Below are positions 1,795-39,143 of a stretch of 64,000 bases of DNA, in pieces (the stretch's first letter is position 1; each line of letters starts with the position of its first letter). The notes beneath the pieces were generated by a model. The model saw nothing but the letters and a program-made list of their open reading frames with translations. It was not told where the DNA came from and did not search any database. The translations under genes and the position numbers were made by a program. This DNA comes from Symmachiella macrocystis (GTDB lineage: Bacteria > Planctomycetota > Planctomycetia > Planctomycetales > Planctomycetaceae). Location: assembly GCF_007860075.1 (NCBI RefSeq), contig NZ_SJPP01000001.1, positions 2,025,980 through 2,089,979 on the forward strand, read 5' to 3'.

Positions 1795-1871
<77 letters not shown>

Positions 1872-1939: not shown

Positions 1940-1955
1940 CAAAAGTAGCTATAGC
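1940..1955. promoter_or_regulatory. Candidate integrase arm-type site, left
   Basis: AAAAGTAGCTATAG lies about 70 bases inside attL. The same AGTAGCTA word occurs in several copies near attR (38941-38988). A word shared by the two prophage ends and flanking the core is what arm-type binding sites of a lambda-type integrase look like. The assignment is inference. Confidence 0.4.
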
Positions 1956-1969
1956 GTTGCGGTAAACAA

Positions 1970-3109
1970 TTATCCCAGCAGTTTGGCAATCGAATCTGAA
2001 GCCATCGACTGCACGCCTTCCAGGACGTGGGCATAGACTTTCAGCAGCGTGCTCGCGTCCTTGTGGCCCATTACGTCAGCAACGATATGAGCGGGAACCC
2101 CCGCCGTCAGTTGCAACGTGGCGTAGGTGTGGCGGATGTGGTGAAAGCCGCGGTATTCAATGCCACAGTCCTTTAGCAGCCTCACCCATACGTAGCGCCG
2201 AAAATTGCTTTTGCGGATCAGCCCCCCCGCAGTGTCCACAAATACCAATTCTTGCAATCCCTCCTTGAGAGAGGCCGCTCGATGCTGATTCATTCTAGCA
2301 ATGATTGAGGCTGGTAACTCGATAGTGCGGCGGCTGGTTGGCGTTTTTAGGCGTTCGGTTAGCTTACGCATTCCACGGGGTTCGATTAACTGCTGCTTCA
2401 CGTCCAATCGGCTCATTTTGAAGTCGATGGAACTCCAAGGCAAACCGAAAATCTCCCCTTGTCGCATCCCGGTCGCAAATGCCAGAAGTACTGCAGACCC
2501 CAGCCTACACCCTTCGGATTCTTTGATAATCGCTCGCATCTGTTGTTGCGTGAACGGGTGGATCTCTTCCGGCTGGTACTGTGGACGTGGCACGCCATCC
2601 ACAGGATTCTTGCCGATCTCCCCCATCGCAACAGCCCGACCAAGTGCCGTTTTCAAAACAGTGTGGGCGTACTGCCGTGTTTTGCCGCCCACCTCGTCGC
2701 GTTTCATCGCTGCCAGCATCGAGAGCACATTTCGAGAGGTCAGGGCGGACAGCTTCAATCGGCCGATGCGGGGGATAATGTGATTCTTGATCGACAAACG
2801 ATAGCTTTCGTAAGTGTTCTCCGCCCTCTCACCCTGGATAACGTCGGACAGCCACAATCTCATGTATTGGGCCACGTTCATCGAATCCGCCGGCAAACCA
2901 ACTCCCGCTGCCAAATCGTGTTGCAACTCGCGAAGAAACACGTTTGCATCGGCTTTCGATTTTGCCACCTTGGACCGCCGCCGCAGTTCGCCGTTAGCGT
3001 CATAGACGGTGATCATCGCCCTCCACTTCGTACCATCCTTGAAAACCGAACCCTCACCGTTTCCGCGTTGCTTTTTTCTTTGTTGCCTTTTTGGCCGTTC
3101 GCTTTTCAT
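1970..3109 (-). CDS. int: Phage integrase, tyrosine recombinase
   Basis: This 379-residue protein catalyses site-specific integration and excision at tRNA-Lys. The N-terminal 50 residues carry a basic stretch and a GNGEGSVFKDGTKWRA segment typical of the arm-binding domain, followed by a core-binding domain. The C-terminal catalytic domain shows Arg in TGMRQGEIFGL, the beta-hairpin Lys in LKTPTSRR, HHIRHTYA, GHKD and the nucleophile Tyr in KVYAHV, so all catalytic residues are present. The ATG at 3109 fits the usual family start; it overlaps the end of the upstream small gene by 56 bases, suggesting translational coupling, and its ribosome binding site is weak. A longer in-frame extension to 3226 lies entirely inside that upstream gene and is unlikely. 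The gene points toward attL, as usual. Confidence 0.95.
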   Translation of the reverse strand: MKSERPKRQQRKKQRGNGEGSVFKDGTKWRAMITVYDANGELRRRSKVAKSKADANVFLRELQHDLAAGVGLPADSMNVAQYMRLWLSDVIQGERAENTYESYRLSIKNHIIPRIGRLKLSALTSRNVLSMLAAMKRDEVGGKTRQYAHTVLKTALGRAVAMGEIGKNPVDGVPRPQYQPEEIHPFTQQQMRAIIKESEGCRLGSAVLLAFATGMRQGEIFGLPWSSIDFKMSRLDVKQQLIEPRGMRKLTERLKTPTSRRTIELPASIIARMNQHRAASLKEGLQELVFVDTAGGLIRKSNFRRYVWVRLLKDCGIEYRGFHHIRHTYATLQLTAGVPAHIVADVMGHKDASTLLKVYAHVLEGVQSMASDSIAKLLG

Positions 3110-3356
3110 TTTTCTTGTCTGCAATAGTGACCATGCCAAGGTGTTTGTAAAGCGTCTGCGCGTCAACCCACTTCTTCCGCCCAGGCGCCCGCATGTACGG
3201 CACGTCGCATTCGTCGAGCCATTCATTGAGGCAGGTCACGGACACCTCAAATTTGTCGGCCCAGTAATCCTCGCAATAAGTTCCCGAATCGGGCAATTTT
3301 TTGTTGTCTGGTCGAAACAGCCTGTCGCAATTCGACTCCCATTGCATAAAATCCAT
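3054..3356 (-). CDS. Small basic HTH-like protein, Xis candidate
   Basis: A 100-residue protein that overlaps the start of the integrase gene. The start is set by GGAGGG five bases before the ATG at 3356. The central part (about residues 30-70) reads as a short winged-helix or MerR-like DNA-binding fold, with VSVTCLNEWLDECDVP followed by KKWVDAQTLYKHL. The last 25 residues are a Lys/Arg/Ala-rich tail resembling histone H1-like nucleic-acid-binding tails. Position and size fit a recombination directionality factor (excisionase) or a regulator of int, but no family could be named with certainty, so the role is inference from context. Confidence 0.65.
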   Translation of the reverse strand: MDFMQWESNCDRLFRPDNKKLPDSGTYCEDYWADKFEVSVTCLNEWLDECDVPYMRAPGRKKWVDAQTLYKHLGMVTIADKKNEKRTAKKATKKKATRKR

Positions 3357-18974: not shown

Positions 18975-20924
18975 TTATCCGAATTTCAACCCGGCGGCCG
19001 CACGCTTCGCCATTGCTTTGGTATGTTTTGCCGTTTCTTCGGTCGCTTTGGCCGTCCGATCCGCTGTTGACGATCCGCCCAGGCCAGCCGCCGCGAACGC
19101 GCTAAACGTTCCTTTCGTCGACACCTTGCCATCCTTAAGACCACTGCCCGCCGACACCGCTTCGTCTAGTCCCGGAATGTCTTTAATCGTTATGCCAGCA
19201 GCATCCGCCTTTTTCTTCGCCTCGCCCTTAGCCGCCTCAAACTCCGCACGAGCATCCGCCAGCGCCTTTTCGTTCGCTTCCATCTCCGCCGCAAACCCCG
19301 CGGCCCGCTCCGCCGCTTGTCGCTCCGCTTCGCTTTTTAGCTCCGCTTGTGCCCCGGCCCGGTCCGCTTCAATCTGCGCCAACTTCGCTTGTCGGTCTTG
19401 ATCGCGCTTGAAAACCGCCTCATTCTGCGCGTTATCAATCGCCGCGTTATCTCCGGCCGTTACCGCGTCAATCGCCGCAATCTGAGCATCAACATTGATA
19501 CCCTCGTCAAAAAGACCTTTGAGCCGAATCCAAGACTTTTCAATATAGCCGGCGGAGTTGTTCCACGCCTTCAATACGCCGTTTGCCATCACGGCCCACG
19601 CGTCATAGAGGAAATCGACCGTATGCACCCATCCCGATTCCAGCACGGACCACGCGTCAAGCATCATGGACGACATAGCGAAAACAGCCGCCTCCCACGT
19701 CTCCACAAAAAATGACTTGAACTCGGCCCACTTTTCTTTGATCACATTCAGGCCCGCGACGAATTCCGATTTCAAATACAGCCACATCACTTTCGCGGCC
19801 AATTTCATATCACCGCCGGCGATCGCGTCCCGGATTCCTTCAAACGCGCCGAGAGCTCGCGCCTTGAGTTCGCCGAACTTGCCCATCAGCCACGCTAGCG
19901 CCTGCCCGCCGCTTTCGGACATCTTGACCCAATAGACCCCCAGGCCAATCACCGCGGCCGCCACAAGGCCAATCGGAGACAACAGCACGCCCAGCACGGA
20001 ACCGATCGCCGACATGACAGTAACCACGCCGCCGACAGCCGCACCGGCTAACGCGAACGCTCCGCCAATACCCGCAATCGCCGTTCCTATTGCCACGGCC
20101 GCCACCGCCAGCTTGAACACGCCGACAATTAGGTTTTTATTTTCCTTGACCCAGTTAATAACCTTCGTGACGATCGGCGCAATTTTTGATTGCATAGCAA
20201 CCAAGGCCGGAGCCAGCGCAGAACCTACTTGCGTCACGATCGCCCCGAACTGCCGCCGCAGTCGATTCATTGCATCCGTCAGCTCCGCCGCACTGGTCGC
20301 ATCATCTTCGGACATCGTAATGCCCAGCGCCTCCGCCTCTTTCTGCAATTTTTCGATACCAGCCGCCCCGCCGTTGAGCATCGGTAGCAACTCCCGACCA
20401 CTCCGGCCGAAAACATTGAGCGCCAGCCCCGCGCGTACCGTCGGATCTTCGACGTTGGAAATACCCTCAGCCAGCAACTTAAACTTGCCCTCTGGATTCA
20501 ACGCCTTAAAGTCAGCCACGGAGACGCCCAGCATATCCAGAACATCCGTTGCCGTACTCAAATCACGCTCGACCATCACTGAGAAACGCGCCATCGCCGC
20601 TAATGACCTATCCATTTGGTCGATGCTCGCGCCGCTTTGCTCCGCGGCGAAACCTAGTTGGCTGATTGTCTTCGCACTGAGTCCGGTACGTTGCCGCATT
20701 TTGTCGAGCTGGTCGCCAGTCGACGCGAACAACTTAGCAGCACCCAACAACGGCGCAGCCAACCCCGCGCCCAGTGCAGTAATCCCCGCGCCAATCTTCG
20801 ACACGCCGGCACCGAACGCCGTCAACCGCTGCTGCGCACGCTTCAAACCCTTAGCCAGCTTTGTATCGTCCGCGAACAATTCCAAGAACGCACGACCAGC
20901 ACGAATGCCCCTTGAGCCTGCCAC
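18975..20924 (-). CDS. Tail tape measure protein
   Basis: A 649-residue protein. The N-terminal 250 residues show the TP901/lambda-type tape measure start (FADDTKLAKGLKRAQQRL, then Gly/Ala-rich KIGAGITALGAGLAAPL and LSAKTISQLGFAAEQSG). The middle (residues 260-345) has several strongly hydrophobic segments thought to act in membrane passage of DNA, and residues 480-600 are a Glu/Ala/Lys-rich coiled coil. It sets tail length and is ejected with the genome. Its place after the frameshifted gpG/gpT pair and one small gene is classical. Confidence 0.92.
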   Translation of the reverse strand: MAGSRGIRAGRAFLELFADDTKLAKGLKRAQQRLTAFGAGVSKIGAGITALGAGLAAPLLGAAKLFASTGDQLDKMRQRTGLSAKTISQLGFAAEQSGASIDQMDRSLAAMARFSVMVERDLSTATDVLDMLGVSVADFKALNPEGKFKLLAEGISNVEDPTVRAGLALNVFGRSGRELLPMLNGGAAGIEKLQKEAEALGITMSEDDATSAAELTDAMNRLRRQFGAIVTQVGSALAPALVAMQSKIAPIVTKVINWVKENKNLIVGVFKLAVAAVAIGTAIAGIGGAFALAGAAVGGVVTVMSAIGSVLGVLLSPIGLVAAAVIGLGVYWVKMSESGGQALAWLMGKFGELKARALGAFEGIRDAIAGGDMKLAAKVMWLYLKSEFVAGLNVIKEKWAEFKSFFVETWEAAVFAMSSMMLDAWSVLESGWVHTVDFLYDAWAVMANGVLKAWNNSAGYIEKSWIRLKGLFDEGINVDAQIAAIDAVTAGDNAAIDNAQNEAVFKRDQDRQAKLAQIEADRAGAQAELKSEAERQAAERAAGFAAEMEANEKALADARAEFEAAKGEAKKKADAAGITIKDIPGLDEAVSAGSGLKDGKVSTKGTFSAFAAAGLGGSSTADRTAKATEETAKHTKAMAKRAAAGLKFG

Positions 20925-20940
20925 GTATCACCCCCGCGGA

Positions 20941-21402
20941 TTATGCCGCGTTTTCTTCGATTTCCACCCACGCAAACGGACCCTGTGCGCCGGTTGTCGT
21001 CGTCACTGCCAACTCAATGGAAACCACATCGCCAGCCACCAGCGCGGCAGAGGACAACGCGCCATCGCTGACGGATCGGTCCCCGTCGGCATCGGTGAGA
21101 GTCACAACAGACGACAACACCGAGGCGCCATTGACTTTCAAATCAAAATCAACGTCCGTATTCGTGCCCGTATCATTTAAGAGCGCGTGAAACCCGCGGA
21201 TCGTCGCCGCGCCGGAAGCCACAAATACTATGCGCTCCACCGCGGCTGGCGTCGCGCCGATAGCCAGCCCAAACGACGTCCCCGCCTTGTACAAGTGTTG
21301 CAATTTGTCCGCGTCGATTTTCGTTGCCGCCGCGACCGTTTCATTGACCACGCTTTCAGCCGGCAATCGAATATCACCGCCGATCAACCGAAAATTCCCC
21401 AT
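20941..21402 (-). CDS. Small virion-type beta protein between gpT and tape measure
   Basis: A 153-residue protein (MGNFRLIGGDIRLPAESVV) with a carbohydrate-binding-like or decoration-like beta composition: VDFDLKVNGASVLSSVVTLT and VSIELAVTTTTGAQGPFAWV. Two adjacent ATGs follow an AGGGGG ribosome binding site; I use the second, and the first is equally possible. Proteins of this type with an xxVNG...GDxVSIELAVT pattern occur among phage tail genes. It is inserted between the tail chaperone and the tape measure. Confidence 0.6.
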   Translation of the reverse strand: MGNFRLIGGDIRLPAESVVNETVAAATKIDADKLQHLYKAGTSFGLAIGATPAAVERIVFVASGAATIRGFHALLNDTGTNTDVDFDLKVNGASVLSSVVTLTDADGDRSVSDGALSSAALVAGDVVSIELAVTTTTGAQGPFAWVEIEENAA

Positions 21403-21410
21403 CATGCCCC

Positions 21411-21698
21411 CTATTTGAATCCGGCCGCCTGGAATGCACCCTTGCAATCCTTTAGCGACATTTTCTCAATTACCGCAGCCGGCTTTTTCTTCGCCTGCGC
21501 GTATGGATGAAATTCCGTAACTTTGTGCGGCTTAGACTTCGGATCACGGTTGATATTCACCAGCAGGCACAACACCGAGGCCACCGCGTCCCACGTCGCA
21601 CGCTGCCGGCCCTCCGCCATCCATGCCAGCTCACGCAACGAATACGGCCCCGGATTGACACCGACAACGCCAGCCAGCTCGTAAACTACAGACCAGCT
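21411..21698 (-). CDS. gpT part of tail assembly chaperone, -1 frame
   Basis: This 95-residue stretch is open in the -1 frame relative to the upstream gpG-like gene and overlaps its end. Coding character runs unbroken from the overlap (SWSVVYELAGVVGVNPGPYS, then LRELAWMAEGRQRATWDAVA) through to FQAAGFK, with no good start codon at the beginning. It is therefore made as a gpG-gpT fusion of about 234 residues by ribosomal slippage on the AAAAAAG run at 21697-21703. The LRELAWMAEGR...WD.tA motif is typical of gpT-like tail chaperones (DUF/phage_TAC family). Confidence 0.8.
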   Translation of the reverse strand, partial: SWSVVYELAGVVGVNPGPYSLRELAWMAEGRQRATWDAVASVLCLLVNINRDPKSKPHKVTEFHPYAQAKKKPAAVIEKMSLKDCKGAFQAAGFK

Positions 21699-22114
21699 TT
21701 TTTGATTGCCGCGTCCATTTCCTTTTCCGCCTGCCCGCTCGCTAGATACGTCTCCGCCGCTTCCAGCCCCCGCGCCTCCAGCGCCTTTTGCTTGTCGATC
21801 ACTTTCCGAAGCGTCGCCCGCTTCGCTGACCGGGAAAAATTTACCAGCGCATCAAGCACAGCCTCCGTAGCCTCATCGATAGCGTCTCCGCCCAGGCCCC
21901 GGCCGAAATCCTCGTCCGTGATACCGTCCGCGTCCGCCTGAGGCAGACACAACACAAACAGCACATCCGCCAGCAAAATCGGATCGCTCGCCAGTTGCGG
22001 AAATACGTCCACATCCAGCAAGTCCACCTCCAGCTTTTTCCGCACGCGCCGCACGTCATCGACCGTAATCGTAAAGACCCACTCACGCCCCGCGTTATCC
22101 GTAAACTTTGACAC
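21686..22114 (-). CDS. gpG-like tail assembly chaperone
   Basis: A 142-residue acidic helical protein (MSKFTDNAGREWVFTITVDD) ending MDAAIKKAGL. The start GREWVFTITVDDVRRVRKKLEVDLL resembles many siphovirus tail assembly chaperones that coat the tape measure while the tail tube is built. The last codons contain six consecutive A and a G, after which a long -1 frame continues, the hallmark of this gene pair. It lies between the tail tube and tape measure genes as expected. Confidence 0.8.
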   Translation of the reverse strand: MSKFTDNAGREWVFTITVDDVRRVRKKLEVDLLDVDVFPQLASDPILLADVLFVLCLPQADADGITDEDFGRGLGGDAIDEATEAVLDALVNFSRSAKRATLRKVIDKQKALEARGLEAAETYLASGQAEKEMDAAIKKAGL

Positions 22115-22186
22115 CGTTTCCGCTCCGGCTTAATTCCATACAAGCCCAAGCACCGCACCGCCCAGAGAACCACACAACCGCCGCCG

Positions 22187-22417
22187 CTACTTAGCCAGCA
22201 GCGCCTTTTTGCCTTGCAGCACCTCACGCCACAACTCAACCTCAACATCAAGATATTTCTTGCCCGATCCGCGGCCGGATTCTTCCAGCTCCTTGACCGA
22301 ACCCGGCGCGATCAGCTCCACATCGTCGCGCAACACCGCCACAAATTTTGCATTGCCCACGCGCGAAATACCTTTGAGTAGATCCGCCTTCACTTGCTCC
22401 GCCTTTTTCCGTGCCAT
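22187..22417 (-). CDS. Small charged phage protein
   Basis: A 76-residue Lys/Glu-rich protein (MARKKAEQVKADLLKGISRV) between the tail tube gene and the tail chaperone. Composition suggests a small beta-strand core (FVAVLRDDVELIAPGS) with a basic N-terminus. No family recognised. Spacing of about 70 bases on each side and direction fit the late operon. Confidence 0.55.
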   Translation of the reverse strand: MARKKAEQVKADLLKGISRVGNAKFVAVLRDDVELIAPGSVKELEESGRGSGKKYLDVEVELWREVLQGKKALLAK

Positions 22418-22492
22418 CCGCTCAAACCTCCATTAAACCAAAAGGAAACCGCACCCAGCCGGCCCACCGCCGGCCGCCGCCCTACACGGCCA

Positions 22493-22936
22493 CTAGGCCG
22501 TAGTCGTGTACCAGACCGGAGTGTTTGCCGTTCGCGTCGGCTTGGCAGACATCGCCAACGTCGCCGCATCCTCCCGCGACTCCGTGCGCTCAAACGTGAA
22601 GATATGGAAATCTGCCCGCGGACCCTCATTGTCAGCCACGCCGCTTGCACCATCGAGCGCGAGGAGTTCAATCGTGGTTCGATCCAAGAATGCATCGCGC
22701 AGCGCCGTATAGGCGCCATGCTCATGGTCGGCCAGCATGTCCCATTCCAAGGCCAATTCTCGCCCGCCCTTGAGGAACAATTTCCAGATCGATTCACGCG
22801 TCAAAACTTCTCCCTCGCTATCCGCCAGCGCTATTTTGACATCCATTGCGATATCAATCTCAACCCACGTTGGGGAGGCCCACGTTGCCGAGTTGTAGTA
22901 CAACTTGCAGTCAAGGCCGATTACCGTATAACTCAA
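22493..22936 (-). CDS. Major tail tube protein
   Basis: A 147-residue protein (MSYTVIGLDCKLYYNSATWA) of the size and beta-rich pattern of siphovirus tail tube proteins, with the conserved-looking SIWKLFLKGGRELALEWDML and TALRDAFLDRTTIELLALDG segments that also occur in HK97/TP901-like tube proteins. It lies after the head-tail connector genes and before the chaperone pair, as the tube gene should. Confidence 0.75.
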   Translation of the reverse strand: MSYTVIGLDCKLYYNSATWASPTWVEIDIAMDVKIALADSEGEVLTRESIWKLFLKGGRELALEWDMLADHEHGAYTALRDAFLDRTTIELLALDGASGVADNEGPRADFHIFTFERTESREDAATLAMSAKPTRTANTPVWYTTTA

Positions 22937-22947
22937 ATCTCCGCCCC

Positions 22948-23361
22948 CTATTTGATTGAATCACGCCACAGGCTTGGAACCTTTGGCAAATTTTCCTGAT
23001 AAGCCGGCCCCATGAACGGCCGCGGCTCGTATGACACCCGCTTGCCGCGCCGCACCGCCTGCCCGCCTTCCTCCAACAACTCCGCCACACCCGACCGATA
23101 CAACAACGGCCCCACCACCACCGATTGCGCTGCCATGTCGAATGCGAATAACAACAGCCGCCGCAACCCGCCCTCATGGCTTGACGGCGGATCACCCGAA
23201 CCGCTCACCCGCTTACGCTTGCGGATTGAACTCCGCGCCGTCCGCCGCACAAACGAACCGAACCGCGACAATACGTGACGCGTCGCCCGCTCTTTGGGAG
23301 ACACAACCGCCCGCGGATTGAACATTTGCACCGGCCGGCCGCGTAACTTGAAACCGATCAC
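22948..23361 (-). CDS. HK97 gp10-like neck/tail component
   Basis: A 137-residue basic protein. The C-terminal part has GPLLYRSGVAELLEEGG and YEPRPFMGPAY, the typical end of HK97 gp10/lambda gpZ-type minor tail proteins where RPFmgPA.e is a signature. The start is taken as the GTG at 23361, which overlaps the upstream stop as GTGA and has GGAAGG seven bases before it; a GTG at 23376 would add five residues. It joins the head-tail interface or completes the tail. Confidence 0.75.
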   Translation of the reverse strand: MIGFKLRGRPVQMFNPRAVVSPKERATRHVLSRFGSFVRRTARSSIRKRKRVSGSGDPPSSHEGGLRRLLLFAFDMAAQSVVVGPLLYRSGVAELLEEGGQAVRRGKRVSYEPRPFMGPAYQENLPKVPSLWRDSIK

Positions 23362-31085: not shown

Positions 31086-31360
31086 AATAAACAGCCACTG
31101 ATAAGAATGGCCACCTTTTTCCCTGGTTGACTGGGGGATTAGCCTAGATTGCGTTTTTCTCGCAGGATTTACTTGAATTGCGGTTTCGGGACGGTAGTTT
31201 GGTGGAAGTTATTTTCGGAAAAATCGGAAAAATCCGCGAATTCGTGACCTAGCACAGCCGTTTTTTTCGCATTGTTATGGGGGCTCGGCCCGTAACGCAA
31301 CTGCCGTCGCCTGACCCAACAATCGTTAGCAGATTCAACAGGGAAAACTGGAGACAAGAA

Positions 31361-32146
31361 ATGAAACGCATAAGTCAAATCGCAGTCGGTGGCGAGTTCG
31401 TATCCGCGGCGTGTGGGAGATTTGCAGTATTCAGTCTCATGTTTTTATTTACATCAGTGGCCAATGGGGAATTTGCTGTAAGCCCGACGACATTAGATGG
31501 CAACGCCTTTCTTCAATCGTTTGATGCCGATGGTAATACAACATTTGCGGGTCACGCATTTAACAATTTCAACGCCGGCATCGATGATTTGGCATTCGAC
31601 AGCAATGGCGATCTCTACTTATTACTCTCTAATTCAGGAGAGCATCCCAACAGTGGGATCTATCGGTTTGATCCCAATACGAGTACAACCACGTTGGTCG
31701 CCAATAGAACCACAATCCTCGGTCAAGGAGATCTCGCCGTTTCTCCAACCGGCGGATTTGCTGTAAGCCCGACGACATTAGATAGCAGCGCCTTTCTTCA
31801 ATCGTTTGATGCCGATGGTAATACAACATTTGCGGGTCACGCATTTAACAATTTCAACGCCGGCATCGATGATTTGGCATTCGACAGCAATGGCGATCTC
31901 TACTTATTACTCTCTAATTCAGGAGAGCATCCCAACAGTGGGATCTATCGGTTTGATCCCAATACGAGTACAACCACGTTGGTCGCCAATAGAACCACAA
32001 TCCTCGGTCAAGGAGATCTCGCCGTTTCTCCAACCGGCGGATTTGCCCCCGTCCCCGAACCCTCCACTTACGCCGGACTCCTCGGTATCACTTGCGTCTC
32101 ACTGCTCGCCTACGGCTGGCGACGCAAACGGCAACAAGCTGCGTGA
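31361..32146 (+). CDS. PEP-CTERM protein with a tandem duplication (moron)
   Basis: A 261-residue exported protein. It has an N-terminal signal peptide (residues 15-35, hydrophobic FAVFSLMFLFTSVA), two 95-residue repeats containing DDLAFDSNGDLYLLL and SGIYRFDPNTSTTTLV that resemble a beta-propeller blade pair, and a C-terminal sorting signal: VPEPSTYAG, a hydrophobic helix and the basic end YGWRRKRQQAA. PEP-CTERM proteins are handled by exosortase and end in the envelope or outside. The start has GGAG eight bases upstream; a longer frame to 31277 has none. It runs against all surrounding phage genes, has its own terminator and is not a phage structural gene, so it is a lysogenic-conversion type cargo gene. 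No exosortase gene is in the window. Confidence 0.85.
   Translation: MKRISQIAVGGEFVSAACGRFAVFSLMFLFTSVANGEFAVSPTTLDGNAFLQSFDADGNTTFAGHAFNNFNAGIDDLAFDSNGDLYLLLSNSGEHPNSGIYRFDPNTSTTTLVANRTTILGQGDLAVSPTGGFAVSPTTLDSSAFLQSFDADGNTTFAGHAFNNFNAGIDDLAFDSNGDLYLLLSNSGEHPNSGIYRFDPNTSTTTLVANRTTILGQGDLAVSPTGGFAPVPEPSTYAGLLGITCVSLLAYGWRRKRQQAA
31472..32041 (+). repeat. Two tandem 285-bp repeats in the PEP-CTERM gene
   Basis: Bases 31472-31756 and 31757-32041 are almost identical; the clearest differences are in the segment near the start of each unit (GATGGCAACGCC against GATAGCAGCGCC). The two units encode the same 95 residues with two changes, so the duplication is recent or kept by gene conversion. Confidence 0.95.
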
Positions 32147-33831: not shown

Positions 33832-34393
33832 TTTCCATGTCCTCCGCACAGGTTAAACGCTTCGCCAACGCCGCGGCTGGCGATTCAATACGACGTTGCC
33901 GGACCTCTATGGCCGACACTGGCCGAACGTCGGCCGATAACTTCCGCTGCCTCTCCGCCACAACGGCCCGCGATTCATAAGCCCGCCGAAACTGTGCCGC
34001 GATCACAGGCAACTGATCGCTTTGGCAATCACACAGCCGGCGAAAACCGCCAGACCCACCGAGGGCACAGAGCGTCAATTGATCCAACGACGCCACGCCC
34101 TCTGCGATTTTGTAATAGCCATAACGTGACATCGCGGTCAGAACCGATTGCCACGCCGCGGCCGCGTCCGGCAGCACGCCTTCAGTTGATTCGATAGCCA
34201 TTGAACGCACGGCTGCGATCGACGGAAAGCCGGAATCAATCTCTTGCATCCAGCGACGCACACCGGCCGCGAATTGACCCGCTGTCAGATCCTCCATCGC
34301 AAAGAACCACGCTTCCGCCTGCTCTTTCGATGCCGGCCGCCCAACAGCGGCCACGAGATGCGCGTAAACTCGCGCGAAGTCGCCCCGCGTCAT
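33815..34393 (-). CDS. Helicase loader, G39P-like
   Basis: A 192-residue protein whose first 65 residues (MTRGDFARVYAHLVAAVGRP, then KEQAEAWFFAMEDLTAGQFA and FPSIAAVRSMA) follow the pattern of phage loader/inhibitor proteins of the replicative helicase (SPP1 G39P family): helix, Y..l...yg, E.W...l.dl, fPs...i. The ATG overlaps the stop of the initiator gene (ATGA). The C-terminal half has no clear motif. It would bring the host DnaB-type helicase to the phage origin together with the upstream gene. Confidence 0.7.
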   Translation of the reverse strand: MTRGDFARVYAHLVAAVGRPASKEQAEAWFFAMEDLTAGQFAAGVRRWMQEIDSGFPSIAAVRSMAIESTEGVLPDAAAAWQSVLTAMSRYGYYKIAEGVASLDQLTLCALGGSGGFRRLCDCQSDQLPVIAAQFRRAYESRAVVAERQRKLSADVRPVSAIEVRQRRIESPAAALAKRLTCAEDMENDSRR

Positions 34394-35307
34394 TGGACAC
34401 CCTCCGCGAACGCACGCACGCCATCCAGCAGGCCACTGCCTCGACTCGCCTTCAGATCCGCGTCGGACCTCTTGATCCAACTCAGCAAGAACGCCGGCAT
34501 GCCCCTGGACGTCTTGCGACGTTTGGGGTTTACCTCCAGCCACGCACGGGCCTTGCGACACTCCGCCTCAACGTCCACAGACGGAAACAGATTCGCCCAC
34601 TCATCAACCTGCGACTGGCCGAGAAACCACCCCACGCCACCAGCCTTGACGGCAAAGGCTCCAAGGTCCGCCATCTCCGCTGGCATGTCGGAGTTTTGCT
34701 CCGACAAACAACTACCGTTAGGTAGTTGTATATCTTCTCTTATCTTATCTTCTCTTATGTCGTTACTTTCGTTACTTTTCGTTACGTGATTTTCGTCACT
34801 TTTCGTAACAGTTTCGTTACGTTTTCCGTTACCAGTCCCGCCGCCGCTTTGCTCCTCTTGCCCCTTTTTTCGCTCCCGATATACCGCTTGTCTCTCAGCA
34901 TTTGTTAGCGCCCGCTCTTTCACAGGAACGTTGTACTCATTGAAGTTAGGGAAAATTAGGCCGCCGGGATCTTGACTCTCAATCACCCACCCTACAGACG
35001 ACATGGCAGAGCCAAATCCTGGGACGCCGCTAATCGTGTCCAGGTCTAATATGCTTACGCCGGGAACGAAGTTGTCGTCCTTTACAACCACGTTGACGCT
35101 CGACCAGACCACCAACAGCGCGCTGACCGTAACGCTCACCGTAACGCGCGTGTTACAGACCTCCGTTACTGTCTCGTCACACGCAATCCTGTTGTCCGCA
35201 ACAAACCAATCCTGAAACGATCGATCAAACTCAAGATGCCGCGCCATCGCCGCAACTTTAAGATCGGTCAGCAGGCTGCCCCGCATTTTGACCCAATCGC
35301 CCGCCAT
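34390..35307 (-). CDS. Phage replication initiator (replisome organizer)
   Basis: A 305-residue protein with a start typical of phage replication proteins: MAGDWVKMRGSLLTDLKVAA, a winged-helix-like domain in the first 120 residues, a polar linker rich in Lys, Ser, Asn and Glu (residues 150-210, with a tandem TKSDENHVTKSNESND), and a C-terminal domain containing EWANLFPSVD and ARAWLEVNPKRRKTSRGMPAF. GGAGGG lies seven bases before the ATG. The linker DNA is AT-richer than its surroundings, and in lambda-type phages the origin lies within this gene. It is coupled to the helicase loader. Confidence 0.75.
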   Translation of the reverse strand: MAGDWVKMRGSLLTDLKVAAMARHLEFDRSFQDWFVADNRIACDETVTEVCNTRVTVSVTVSALLVVWSSVNVVVKDDNFVPGVSILDLDTISGVPGFGSAMSSVGWVIESQDPGGLIFPNFNEYNVPVKERALTNAERQAVYRERKKGQEEQSGGGTGNGKRNETVTKSDENHVTKSNESNDIREDKIREDIQLPNGSCLSEQNSDMPAEMADLGAFAVKAGGVGWFLGQSQVDEWANLFPSVDVEAECRKARAWLEVNPKRRKTSRGMPAFLLSWIKRSDADLKASRGSGLLDGVRAFAEGVQ

Positions 35308-35373
35308 TTTTCCGCCCTCCCTAGCATTACCCCGGACACATCGCGGACACCCCGCGGACACTTTGCGAACGCG

Positions 35374-37544: not shown

Positions 37545-37784
37545 TCATGCGGCCCCGTCCTTGATCTCGCCTCCATGCGCCGCATCCTTCGCGGCCCGCG
37601 CCTTCCTTGCAATCTCGCCGCGGTAGATTGGCATTTCGCTGGTGCCGTCAAAACCAAGCTTGACCACGGAACCCATTTGCGCCACAACGACTAGCCGCAA
37701 CGGATCGCCAGCCCGAATCACGACATCCTCAGCACCGCCGCCTATCTCGATCACTTCCCCGATTTTCCGTGCAAGTATCAGCAT
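37545..37784 (-). CDS. csrA: CsrA-like carbon storage regulator, phage-encoded
   Basis: A 79-residue protein matching CsrA/RsmA over its first 55 residues: MLILARKIGEVIEIGG, GDPLRLVVVAQMGSVVKLGF and MPIYRGEIARKA fit the MLvLsRK.gE.i.Ig ... vkigi.AP..v.vhR.Ei consensus. The key Leu4 and the conserved RGEI (for REEI) are there, but the strand 2-3 region has an insertion, and the C-terminal extension is Lys/Ala-rich. GGAGG lies seven bases before the ATG. CsrA binds GGA motifs in mRNA leaders, so a phage copy may steer host or phage translation early after infection or in the lysogen. Confidence 0.85.
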   Translation of the reverse strand: MLILARKIGEVIEIGGGAEDVVIRAGDPLRLVVVAQMGSVVKLGFDGTSEMPIYRGEIARKARAAKDAAHGGEIKDGAA

Positions 37785-37841
37785 CGTTTTTCCTCCATGA
37801 AATCCGCACTCCGTTACAGACGGCCACACGCCGCCCGTTGT

Positions 37842-38129: not shown

Positions 38130-38484
38130 TGTTTCCCCTTTTTGATTCTGAGTAGTTCACCGCGGCCGCAACGCTTCACCAATGGTCCCTCACGCCCATC
38201 CGCGGCCGCGGTTTCCTACTCCGTTAGGTTTGGTTTTGGCGCGGAGGAAAGGAGGCCGAAACGCGTAGCGTTTTGGCCGGGATGAACTCCGCGTCAAACC
38301 CAAACCGTGCCAGATCGCCGCGGGTATCCCACGACAGGCAACAACAGAACAAAACTCAACCAAAAACCCACCTTGACCGGCTGCCTAAATTTCATTTTTC
38401 GTTTTCACGTCGACACCCTATGCGCGCATTTTCCACGCGGAAAAAACTCGATTTTTTGTTTAGCGGGGCGAGTTTCGCCCTGGC
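38130..38484. other. 355-bp gap between early genes
   Basis: GC-rich palindromic patches occur at 38160-38215. On the minus strand, bases 38294-38395 could encode a 33-residue hydrophobic peptide (MKFRQPVKVGFWLSFVLLLP start) but there is no ribosome binding site, so I do not call it. A promoter for the genes to the left could lie here. Confidence 0.35.
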
Positions 38485-38724
38485 TTAGACTTCCATCTGT
38501 GCGATGTACTCAATGACACTTCGCCGACAGTAGGCCAAAGTGCGCCCATTCGGATGGCGTCCGCGACGCACCAAGCCATCGTTTGATTTTCTCTTCAGCG
38601 TCTCGCCATGTATGCCACCAAGAAACGCACAAGCCTCGTCAACCGACATCAATCCATTGACACCAAACCGATAGCCCCACTCTTTGTCGGCGCCCGTCAA
38701 TTTGTTTTCCGTGGTTGTGGCCAT
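38485..38724 (-). CDS. Small HTH (excisionase-like) DNA-binding protein
   Basis: A 79-residue protein with a MerR/excisionase-type helix-turn-helix: GLMSVDEACAFLGGIHGETL, KRKSNDGLVRRGRHPNGRT and a final helix CRRSVIEYI. It is the first phage gene inside attR and reads into the early operon, next to the repeat array at 38848-38908. It could be the excisionase, or an early regulator that binds those repeats. ATGs at 38736 and 38724 are both possible and neither has a clear ribosome binding site; a TTG at 38766 is also open. Confidence 0.65.
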   Translation of the reverse strand: MATTTENKLTGADKEWGYRFGVNGLMSVDEACAFLGGIHGETLKRKSNDGLVRRGRHPNGRTLAYCRRSVIEYIAQMEV

Positions 38725-38847
38725 GCCTCGTGGTTCCATTTGTTTAATTGTGTAGATGACTGGCAACGGAAGGCATTAAAACCCAAATTTCGAGAGTTTC
38801 AAGCGCGTTCTCCAGCGTTAGGGAACCGCAAATAACACGAGTTGCGC

Positions 38848-38908
38848 GAAACCAGGATGAAACCAAATCGAAACCAAATCGAAACCTATGCGAAACCTGC
38901 ATGAAACA
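38848..38908 (+). repeat. Six GAAACC direct repeats on an 11-bp period
   Basis: GAAACC starts at 38848, 38859, 38870, 38881 and 38892, and GAAACA at 38903, each exactly 11 bases apart. The intervening five bases vary (aggat, aaatc, aaatc, tatgc, tgcat). One repeat per helical turn puts all sites on one face of the DNA, as in operator arrays, excisionase sites or replication iterons. It lies about 190 bases inside attR, just upstream of the first early gene. Confidence 0.85.
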
Positions 38909-38940
38909 ATTTTGGACAATTTTTGGTTTTTTCTGCGGCG

Positions 38941-38988
38941 GTAGCTAAAATCAAAAAGTAGCTACGCAAGTAGCAATAGAACGTAGCT
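38941..38988. repeat. GTAGCT repeats, candidate arm-type sites
   Basis: GTAGCTA/GTAGCTAC/GTAGC/GTAGCT occur at 38941, 38958, 38970 and 38983, and the same word is found inside attL near 1944. They lie between the 11-bp repeats and the attR core. Binding sites for integrase arms are the natural reading. Confidence 0.45.
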
Positions 38989-39096
38989 TTATGTTTGGCT
39001 ATGCGCACTAAGAAAGCCGCCCTTGCGGAACGGCTCATATCGCAGTGTTTTATTGTGTGTGGTTACGCTTGCTTGTGCGTGACGCCCCTTGCCTTA

Positions 39097-39143
<47 letters not shown>

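Follow-up and report, generated by a model that had tools for sequence, protein, structure and literature searches.

A helix-phased repeat array beside attR in a planctomycete prophage as a probable binding site of a small winged-helix protein

What is a short row of direct repeats, set one helical turn apart, doing next to the attachment site of a prophage? The window, by which we mean the whole analysed stretch of 64,000 nucleotides from Symmachiella macrocystis (genome G000), carries a prophage integrated in tRNA-Lys (1795-1868), with structural genes for terminase, tape measure, capsid and portal and with a partner tyrosine integrase found within the array's own prophage (Table 1). A 47-bp repeat marks both prophage ends, the copy opposite attR overlapping the tRNA-Lys gene. 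This repeat and the gene order place the array between attR and the first early gene, as had been predicted; 188 bp separate it from the attR repeat on one side, and 123 bp from the start codon of the early gene, here called A, on the other. Near the start of the early operon the phage also carries a CsrA gene (37545-37829; PF02599, 2.5e-10), and a CsrA-like ORF was read near the start of the G245 prophage, which is described below. A gene with a PEP-CTERM motif on the opposite strand (31277-32146) looks like host-type cargo within the prophage and overlaps a 285-bp tandem duplication (99%; 31471-32046).

Table 1. Features of the prophage ends and of the region between attR and gene A (positions in the window).
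Feature	Position	Strand	Basis
attL copy of the 47-bp att repeat, in tRNA-Lys	1825..1871		repeat match, tRNA call
Putative integrase arm-type word TAGCTACTTT, int side	1942..1951	-	word common to both arms
Tyrosine integrase, ORF as listed (start codon provisional)	1970..3226	-	PF00589 8.4e-23, phrog_1 1.1e-62
Protein B (100 aa), putative small HTH protein encoded immediately before int	3054..3356	-	ORF context
Gene A, encoding an HTH_17-like winged-helix protein of 79 aa; leftward, the first gene inside attR	38485..38724	-	profile match, model
Candidate promoter of A: TTGAAA, 16 bp, TTTAAT	38775..38802	-	4/200 shuffles
Phased array, GAAACC x5 + GAAACA, period 11	38848..38908	+	sequence, autocorrelation, shuffles
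AT-rich box, directly adjoining the array	38909..38934		sequence; G153 and G255 share a well-conserved similar box
Putative integrase arm-type word TAGCTACTTT, attR side	38955..38964	-	word common to both arms
attR copy of the 47-bp att repeat	39097..39143		repeat match

GAAACC stands at 38848, 38859, 38870, 38881 and 38892 and GAAACA at 38903 (GGTTTC on the strand of gene A), with a step of exactly 11 bp. Sequence, shuffles and autocorrelation thus agree with the six repeats of the original prediction. The spacers had been called unrelated, which does not hold for two of the five, both being AAATC, and Tandem Repeats Finder calls an 11-bp array at 38847-38897. As a measure we took the largest number of consecutive copies of a single hexamer at any constant period from 8 to 24, with dinucleotide shuffles for comparison. 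By this measure the run of five GAAACC is the longest in the window; the longest run in shuffles was three, reached 4 times in 3000 shuffles of 38400-39100 and 8 times in 60 shuffles of all 64 kb. Over the same 64 kb, the autocorrelation at period 11 is highest at the array, with 33 of 40 matches (mean 10.3, sd 3.0). The word itself is mildly enriched in the window (58 occurrences against 43 expected, equalled or exceeded in 3 of 100 shuffles), and the departure from chance is the fixed spacing. In the 7.57-Mb genome the pattern GAAAC-N6-GAAAC-N6-GAAAC has seven overlapping matches, four of them the array and three a minisatellite at C1:4151919. This minisatellite, (GAAACACAGAT)n, is nearly perfect and shares the 11-bp period of the array, to which it is apparently unrelated.

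Its presence elsewhere in the host genome, together with the two identical spacers, could suggest that the array is also a neutral minisatellite without function. We regard this as improbable, as variation among the units spares the 6-bp word and the 11-bp step, and as phased arrays with other words are found at the same place in related phages (Table 2).

An att array bound by a recombination directionality factor (RDF) is expected to consist of direct repeats spaced by about one helical turn close to att, as found here, and integrase arm-type sites are also short direct repeats near att, with pairs about 11 bp apart in this phage too. That the array consists of arm-type sites is nevertheless very unlikely, as other words are common to both sides of the core: TAGCTACTTT in the window phage, TCCGTTGCGC in G020 and both GGTGGCTAAC and GCGTGGCTAA in G153, with the array words of these three phages not among the shared words listed. 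GAAACC is absent between 1825 and 1970 and so does not occur on both core sides. In G245, pairs of TTTTGCGCC were read from the sequence on both core sides. The arm words of the HTH side sit between core and array, and in the window phage, G020 and G153 the order is core, arm words, AT-rich box, array and A.

Regular direct repeats adjoining an AT-rich box might also be read as iterons of phage replication, one of the meanings originally considered. This reading is not supported and we give it hardly any weight, since a rep-like ORF (34390-35361; phrog_2509, 2e-25) has its own repeats of about 10 bp at 34760-34832, 4 kb away from the array. Within this ORF, repeats of the GTAACGAAAA type at about 10 bp lie beside an AT-rich TATCT stretch (34731-34758), and judged from its sequence the region 34731-34832 is likely to be a replication origin inside the initiator gene. 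At the start of the same ORF, GGACAC occurs three times (35329-35361) as a second 11-bp direct-repeat array, which apart from the GAAACC array is the sole place in the window with a hexamer run of at least three at a period of 9-12.

Towards gene A, the array starts 45 bp upstream of the -35 element of a candidate promoter. Scanning with consensus weights, we found a promoter-like match with a 16-bp spacer and the -10 element at 49-57 bp before the ATG in five of ten phages and in none of the other five. Its score was reached in 4, 5 and 7 of 200 shuffles for the window phage, G185 and G153b, and in 62 and 157 of 200 for G338 and G255; a stricter scan of the window region found no promoter. 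If the promoter is real, the array just upstream of it would fit autoregulation by spreading or activation, and possibly a control of excision. As the repeats end 45 bp short of the candidate -35, occlusion of the promoter would need spreading. The same position upstream of a candidate early promoter would suit an operator of a lysogeny repressor that is encoded elsewhere in the prophage and went unrecognised, and no CI-like repressor was recognised among the scanned proteins, a subset of the prophage ORFs, so that one could be hidden. Repressor operators are more often palindromes and a search for inverted repeats found none inside the array, which makes a repressor operator a rather improbable explanation.

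The small HTH-type protein predicted to adjoin the array is indeed present. A itself matches HTH_17 weakly (E=0.014, 16 bits against a cut-off of 27), and its homologue in G059 does so clearly (3.5e-11, 43.6 bits, above the same cut-off), with further matches of the G059 protein to 'excise' (1.8e-6) and BldC (1.2e-5), both below their cut-offs. The BldC family NF033787 gave no match for A and 25 bits against a cut-off of 77 for the G059 homologue. The structure model of A, built from four sequences (pLDDT 68), is a winged helix. A Foldseek search with this model puts chains of Pukovnik Xis and BldC in its top five rows, none of them below E=0.001. Pukovnik Xis, the BldC-DNA complexes, RdfS and the GIsul2 excisionase all stand within the first eight rows of the fold matches, with terminase small-subunit and MerR-type rows interspersed. 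The VIA-align Z values are 7.2 for Pukovnik Xis (4j2n; 53 residues, 1.8 A, 19% identity over the aligned part), 6.5 and 6.2 for BldC (6ama and 6amk), 5.7 for RdfS and 5.6 for the GIsul2 excisionase; all lie below 8 and taken alone are modest support for the predicted fold relationship.

In order to see how the array behaves in relatives, we collected homologues of A and, counting its own genome each time, found them in 5 of 99 genomes with the single sequence (0.01), in 17 of 397 genomes of the class (1e-4), in 13 of 170 genomes of the host family (1e-6) and in 6 of 392 genomes of the phylum (1e-6). The family search gave 18 matches that represent 17 genes, as two seem to be halves of one broken gene in G102. 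A scan of genome contigs gave two loci. No homologue was found in 50,697 phage records at E 0.1, and six scans of viral contigs returned the window phage's own contig and nine weak part-matches, otherwise none.

The regions upstream of all 17 family genes were examined by a lag-match test and by a chain test, the latter looking for five 7-bp sites spaced 10 or 11 bp and scored by their own matrix. Helix-phased repeats with a period of 10-11 or 20-21 bp are present upstream of eight of the 17 (Table 2), and by the lag-match test they begin 141-180 bp upstream of the ATG. The other nine are without an array by both tests combined (G153a, G374a, G374b, G270b, G270first, G207a, G207b, G417 and G102). 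GAAACC itself is absent from the arrays of the other seven phages. Thus the expectation that the array would be conserved in related elements fails for the literal word and holds for the architecture, which recurs at about the same place with another word in the phages of Table 2. As far as these sequences tell, the repeat word differs between phages and the phase and place persist. An att repeat was found at the array end in the window phage, G020 and G153, and the same tRNA-Lys piece was read in G005; a search for att repeats in G185 and G255 found none.

Table 2. Phased repeats upstream of homologues of gene A, with the score S of the chain test.
Phage	Repeat word	Period	S
G000	GTTTCnnnnnG x6	11 bp	59.3
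G020	TTCAACC x5	10/11 bp	57.6
G338	TTCTnTGnC x5	10 bp	55.8
G185	TTnnGTGACG-like	about 10 bp	44.7
G153b	nACGnCAT-like	10 bp	43.2
G255	nnCGnCGG-like	10 bp	41.6
G005	GTCAGTCTCGTGG	20 bp	33.4
G059	GCGACA and GCAGTT	21 bp	42.2 (neighbouring stretch)

For calibration the chain test was applied to phage 186, where it recovers both annotated Apl arrays, one at 23077-23124 (annotated 23056-23123; S=45.5, 0/40 shuffles) and the other at 21074-21121 (annotated 21075-21121; S=43.8, 0/40 shuffles). The window array scores higher than either. The nine A loci counted without an array range from 30.0 to 37.7, and the maximum in 199 random windows is 40.5. These random windows are too lenient as a background for the test: in a scan of the 64 kb, 5 of 423 other windows reach 41.0 after rounding, with values up to 42.1. 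From both scans it follows that the strongest four arrays stand clear, while G153b, G255 and G049, a phage introduced below, persuade by score and position together, their scores (41.6-43.2) being individually at about the top 1%. In G005 the chain test failed (10/40 shuffles) and the array rests on the 20-bp lag test (0/300); in G059, where the chain test picked a neighbouring stretch, it rests on the 21-bp lag test (0/300). G185 was reached by 13/300 shuffles in the lag test and 0/40 in the chain test. Among the loci counted without an array, G374a had 12/300 in the lag test and 10/40 in the chain test; for G207b and G207a the chain test gave S=37.7 and 36.7 (0/40 and 1/40), below seven of the eight arrays and above G005. 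A lag-match scan of 727 windows from partly overlapping sources, which included the region of G185 (below 21) and left out that of G005, gave nine distinct places with at least 21/30, and six of these are arrays of phages with A; the remaining three are the GGACAC repeats where the rep ORF begins and two other sites of the window.

Phages with this integrase and without A were meant as a negative control, and both att ends were found for two of them, G049 and G245. Both turned out to carry another HTH_17-like protein as first gene (22.6 bits against a cut-off of 27 in G049, where no A homologue was found). G049 has a phased array by the chain test (S=42.7, 0/40 shuffles) and G245 has none by the same test (25/40 shuffles as high). 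No convincing att repeat was found in G237, G043, G248, both G054 loci and G293; the contigs of G229, G317, G278, G196 and the second G048 locus are too short for the far end, and G018 provided the int end alone. Another candidate for this control, G048 C33 (region 20300-23300), proved to be a different element. It has a 76-bp att repeat of its own, CCTACAACCG direct repeats adjoin its att, and its first gene resembles a tyrosine integrase.

How fast the word changes can be followed best in G153 and G255, whose A proteins are 72% identical. In their alignment 17-18 of every 20 columns agree in the blocks that cover arm words and AT box, and 5, 11, 8, 11 and 6 in those of the array, compared to 8-18 elsewhere (the incomplete last block excluded), with both phages holding the 10-bp phase in the array. 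From this alignment the array word seems to change faster than its frame. We also looked for covariation of the array word with the recognition helix of A, using units that were cut by eye and then checked to be contiguous in the data and excluding G245, and found none over nine arrays (Mantel r=0.00, p=0.48). The most similar pair of arrays, G338 and G185 (0.69), has a helix identity of 0.45, and G153 and G255 have the most similar helices (0.64) and dissimilar arrays (0.32).

This missing covariation counts against A as the binding protein, and so does protein B next to int, which might itself bind the array or be the actual excisionase. Genes for Xis are often neighbours of int, and B lies directly upstream of it at all seven integrase loci examined by eye (int and A are on separate contigs in G005 and G059); B-like ORFs probably also precede int in G049 and G245, again by eye. 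The G005 copy of B reaches 27.7 bits with HTH_17 (cut-off 27) and 23.7 bits with 'excise' (cut-off 28.8), the only significant family match for B, with none for the copy in the window, whose single-sequence model is poor (pLDDT 51). At the int end of G153, transposase-like ORFs between the integrase start and its last part suggest an insertion sequence within the gene. The array could then be the site of B as a classical excisionase, with A as an unrelated regulator. We consider this unlikely, as the distance between the array and the neighbouring gene A varies rather little, as the array is placed beyond the arm words, and as other words, TCACCATAG, about 10 bp apart, between core and arms and largely conserved in G153 and G255, suit an excisionase better. 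By sequence and position these words are candidate sites for B, which may therefore be an excisionase, leaving A as regulator. The presence and absence of A and B across loci did not separate the two as binder.

The regularity of the array had been called unusual and unexplained. It corresponds to a known shared binding mode, as RDFs are described to bind tandem repeats one turn apart in a head-to-tail manner (PMC7498355). The closest parallel is Apl of phage 186, for which the same source describes direct repeats of words of about 6 bp with a spacing of 10-11 bp. They are near att and precede the gene for the small HTH protein, the first of the early genes. Phage 186 has two such arrays, with five sites at attP between the core and the right arms and seven between pR and pL, whereas here there is a single array, which is situated beyond the arm words on the way from att to the candidate early promoter. 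The 186 order, with RDF sites between the core and the arm sites of that side, is thus not the one found here. Apl and other RDFs of P2-like phages are described as products of first early-operon genes with a second role in transcription (PMC7498355). P2 Cox, likewise described there as an early-operon RDF that also regulates transcription, is a parallel to A by its description; it has no row among the fold matches listed for A, which excludes nothing.

Pukovnik Xis, the best solved fold match of A, is described as binding tandem repeats head-to-tail (PMC7498355), and differs from the situation here in that an additional small putative HTH gene adjoins int in our prophage. BldC of Streptomyces, the next fold match, is described as a head-to-tail oligomer that stacks as a filament on direct repeats (PMC5859096); it is a developmental regulator of a cell, whereas A is from a phage and falls outside NF033787. 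RdfS of ICEMlSymR7A, an RDF of the HTH_17 group, is described with one protomer per 10 bp, binding attP and its own promoter (PMC11963761), with an extra N-terminal helix and no consensus motif identified, whereas the array words here are sharp. For TorI of KplE1, RDF sites within att near a promoter are described, similar to the arrangement proposed here, with TorI repressing that promoter (PMC2951348); it is the promoter of int, while the neighbour here would be an early promoter. Among the matches listed in our literature search, judged by titles and the starts of abstracts, we found no paper on arrays or an att/early control region of planctomycete prophages. Arrays of this kind are already known; new to us are these members, the placing of one array beyond the arm words and the turnover of the repeat word.

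Taken together, we propose that the array is the nucleation site of a cooperative head-to-tail filament of A, which is most likely autoregulatory and may also act in excision, and we give this reading a probability of roughly 60%. Cooperative binding on one face of the DNA, as originally suggested, is also in our view the likeliest meaning of the array, as a phase of one turn is kept in relatives and the solved folds closest to the model of A are those of Xis, BldC and RdfS. A would assemble head-to-tail with one protomer per helical turn, giving six protomers on about 61 bp, and, with the array lying between the putative arm sites and the candidate early promoter, both could be within reach of a single filament. 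Tuning of A's own early operon would be the most likely role, and A may double as an RDF as Apl of 186 does. That A is the protein that binds the array appears likely from the combined analysis. That the role is mainly autoregulatory is possible, at somewhat less than even odds, and that it is mainly or also excision is more doubtful; this half is weakened by the position of the array outside the arm words, whereas the Apl sites at attP of 186 lie between the core and the right arms.

A further and more speculative idea, which we hold to be unlikely, is that the array is a fast-changing specificity module in these planctomycete phages, with phase, rough copy number and place kept and the word replaced wholesale. 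The immunity-type switch would then be a protein that forms filaments and finds its DNA largely through helical phasing, merging early operator and excision site in one array. Such a module would explain that phages with common arm words and AT box, as G153 and G255, carry different arrays. Whether filaments of the Xis/BldC type recognise their DNA through a word or through its phasing and shape is described as unsettled for RdfS and for BldC (PMC11963761), and phages with the same geometry and different words are a natural test bed for this question. With core, arm words, AT box, phased array, candidate promoter and HTH_17-like gene, the locus also provides an anatomy of the att/early control region in a group of planctomycete prophages.
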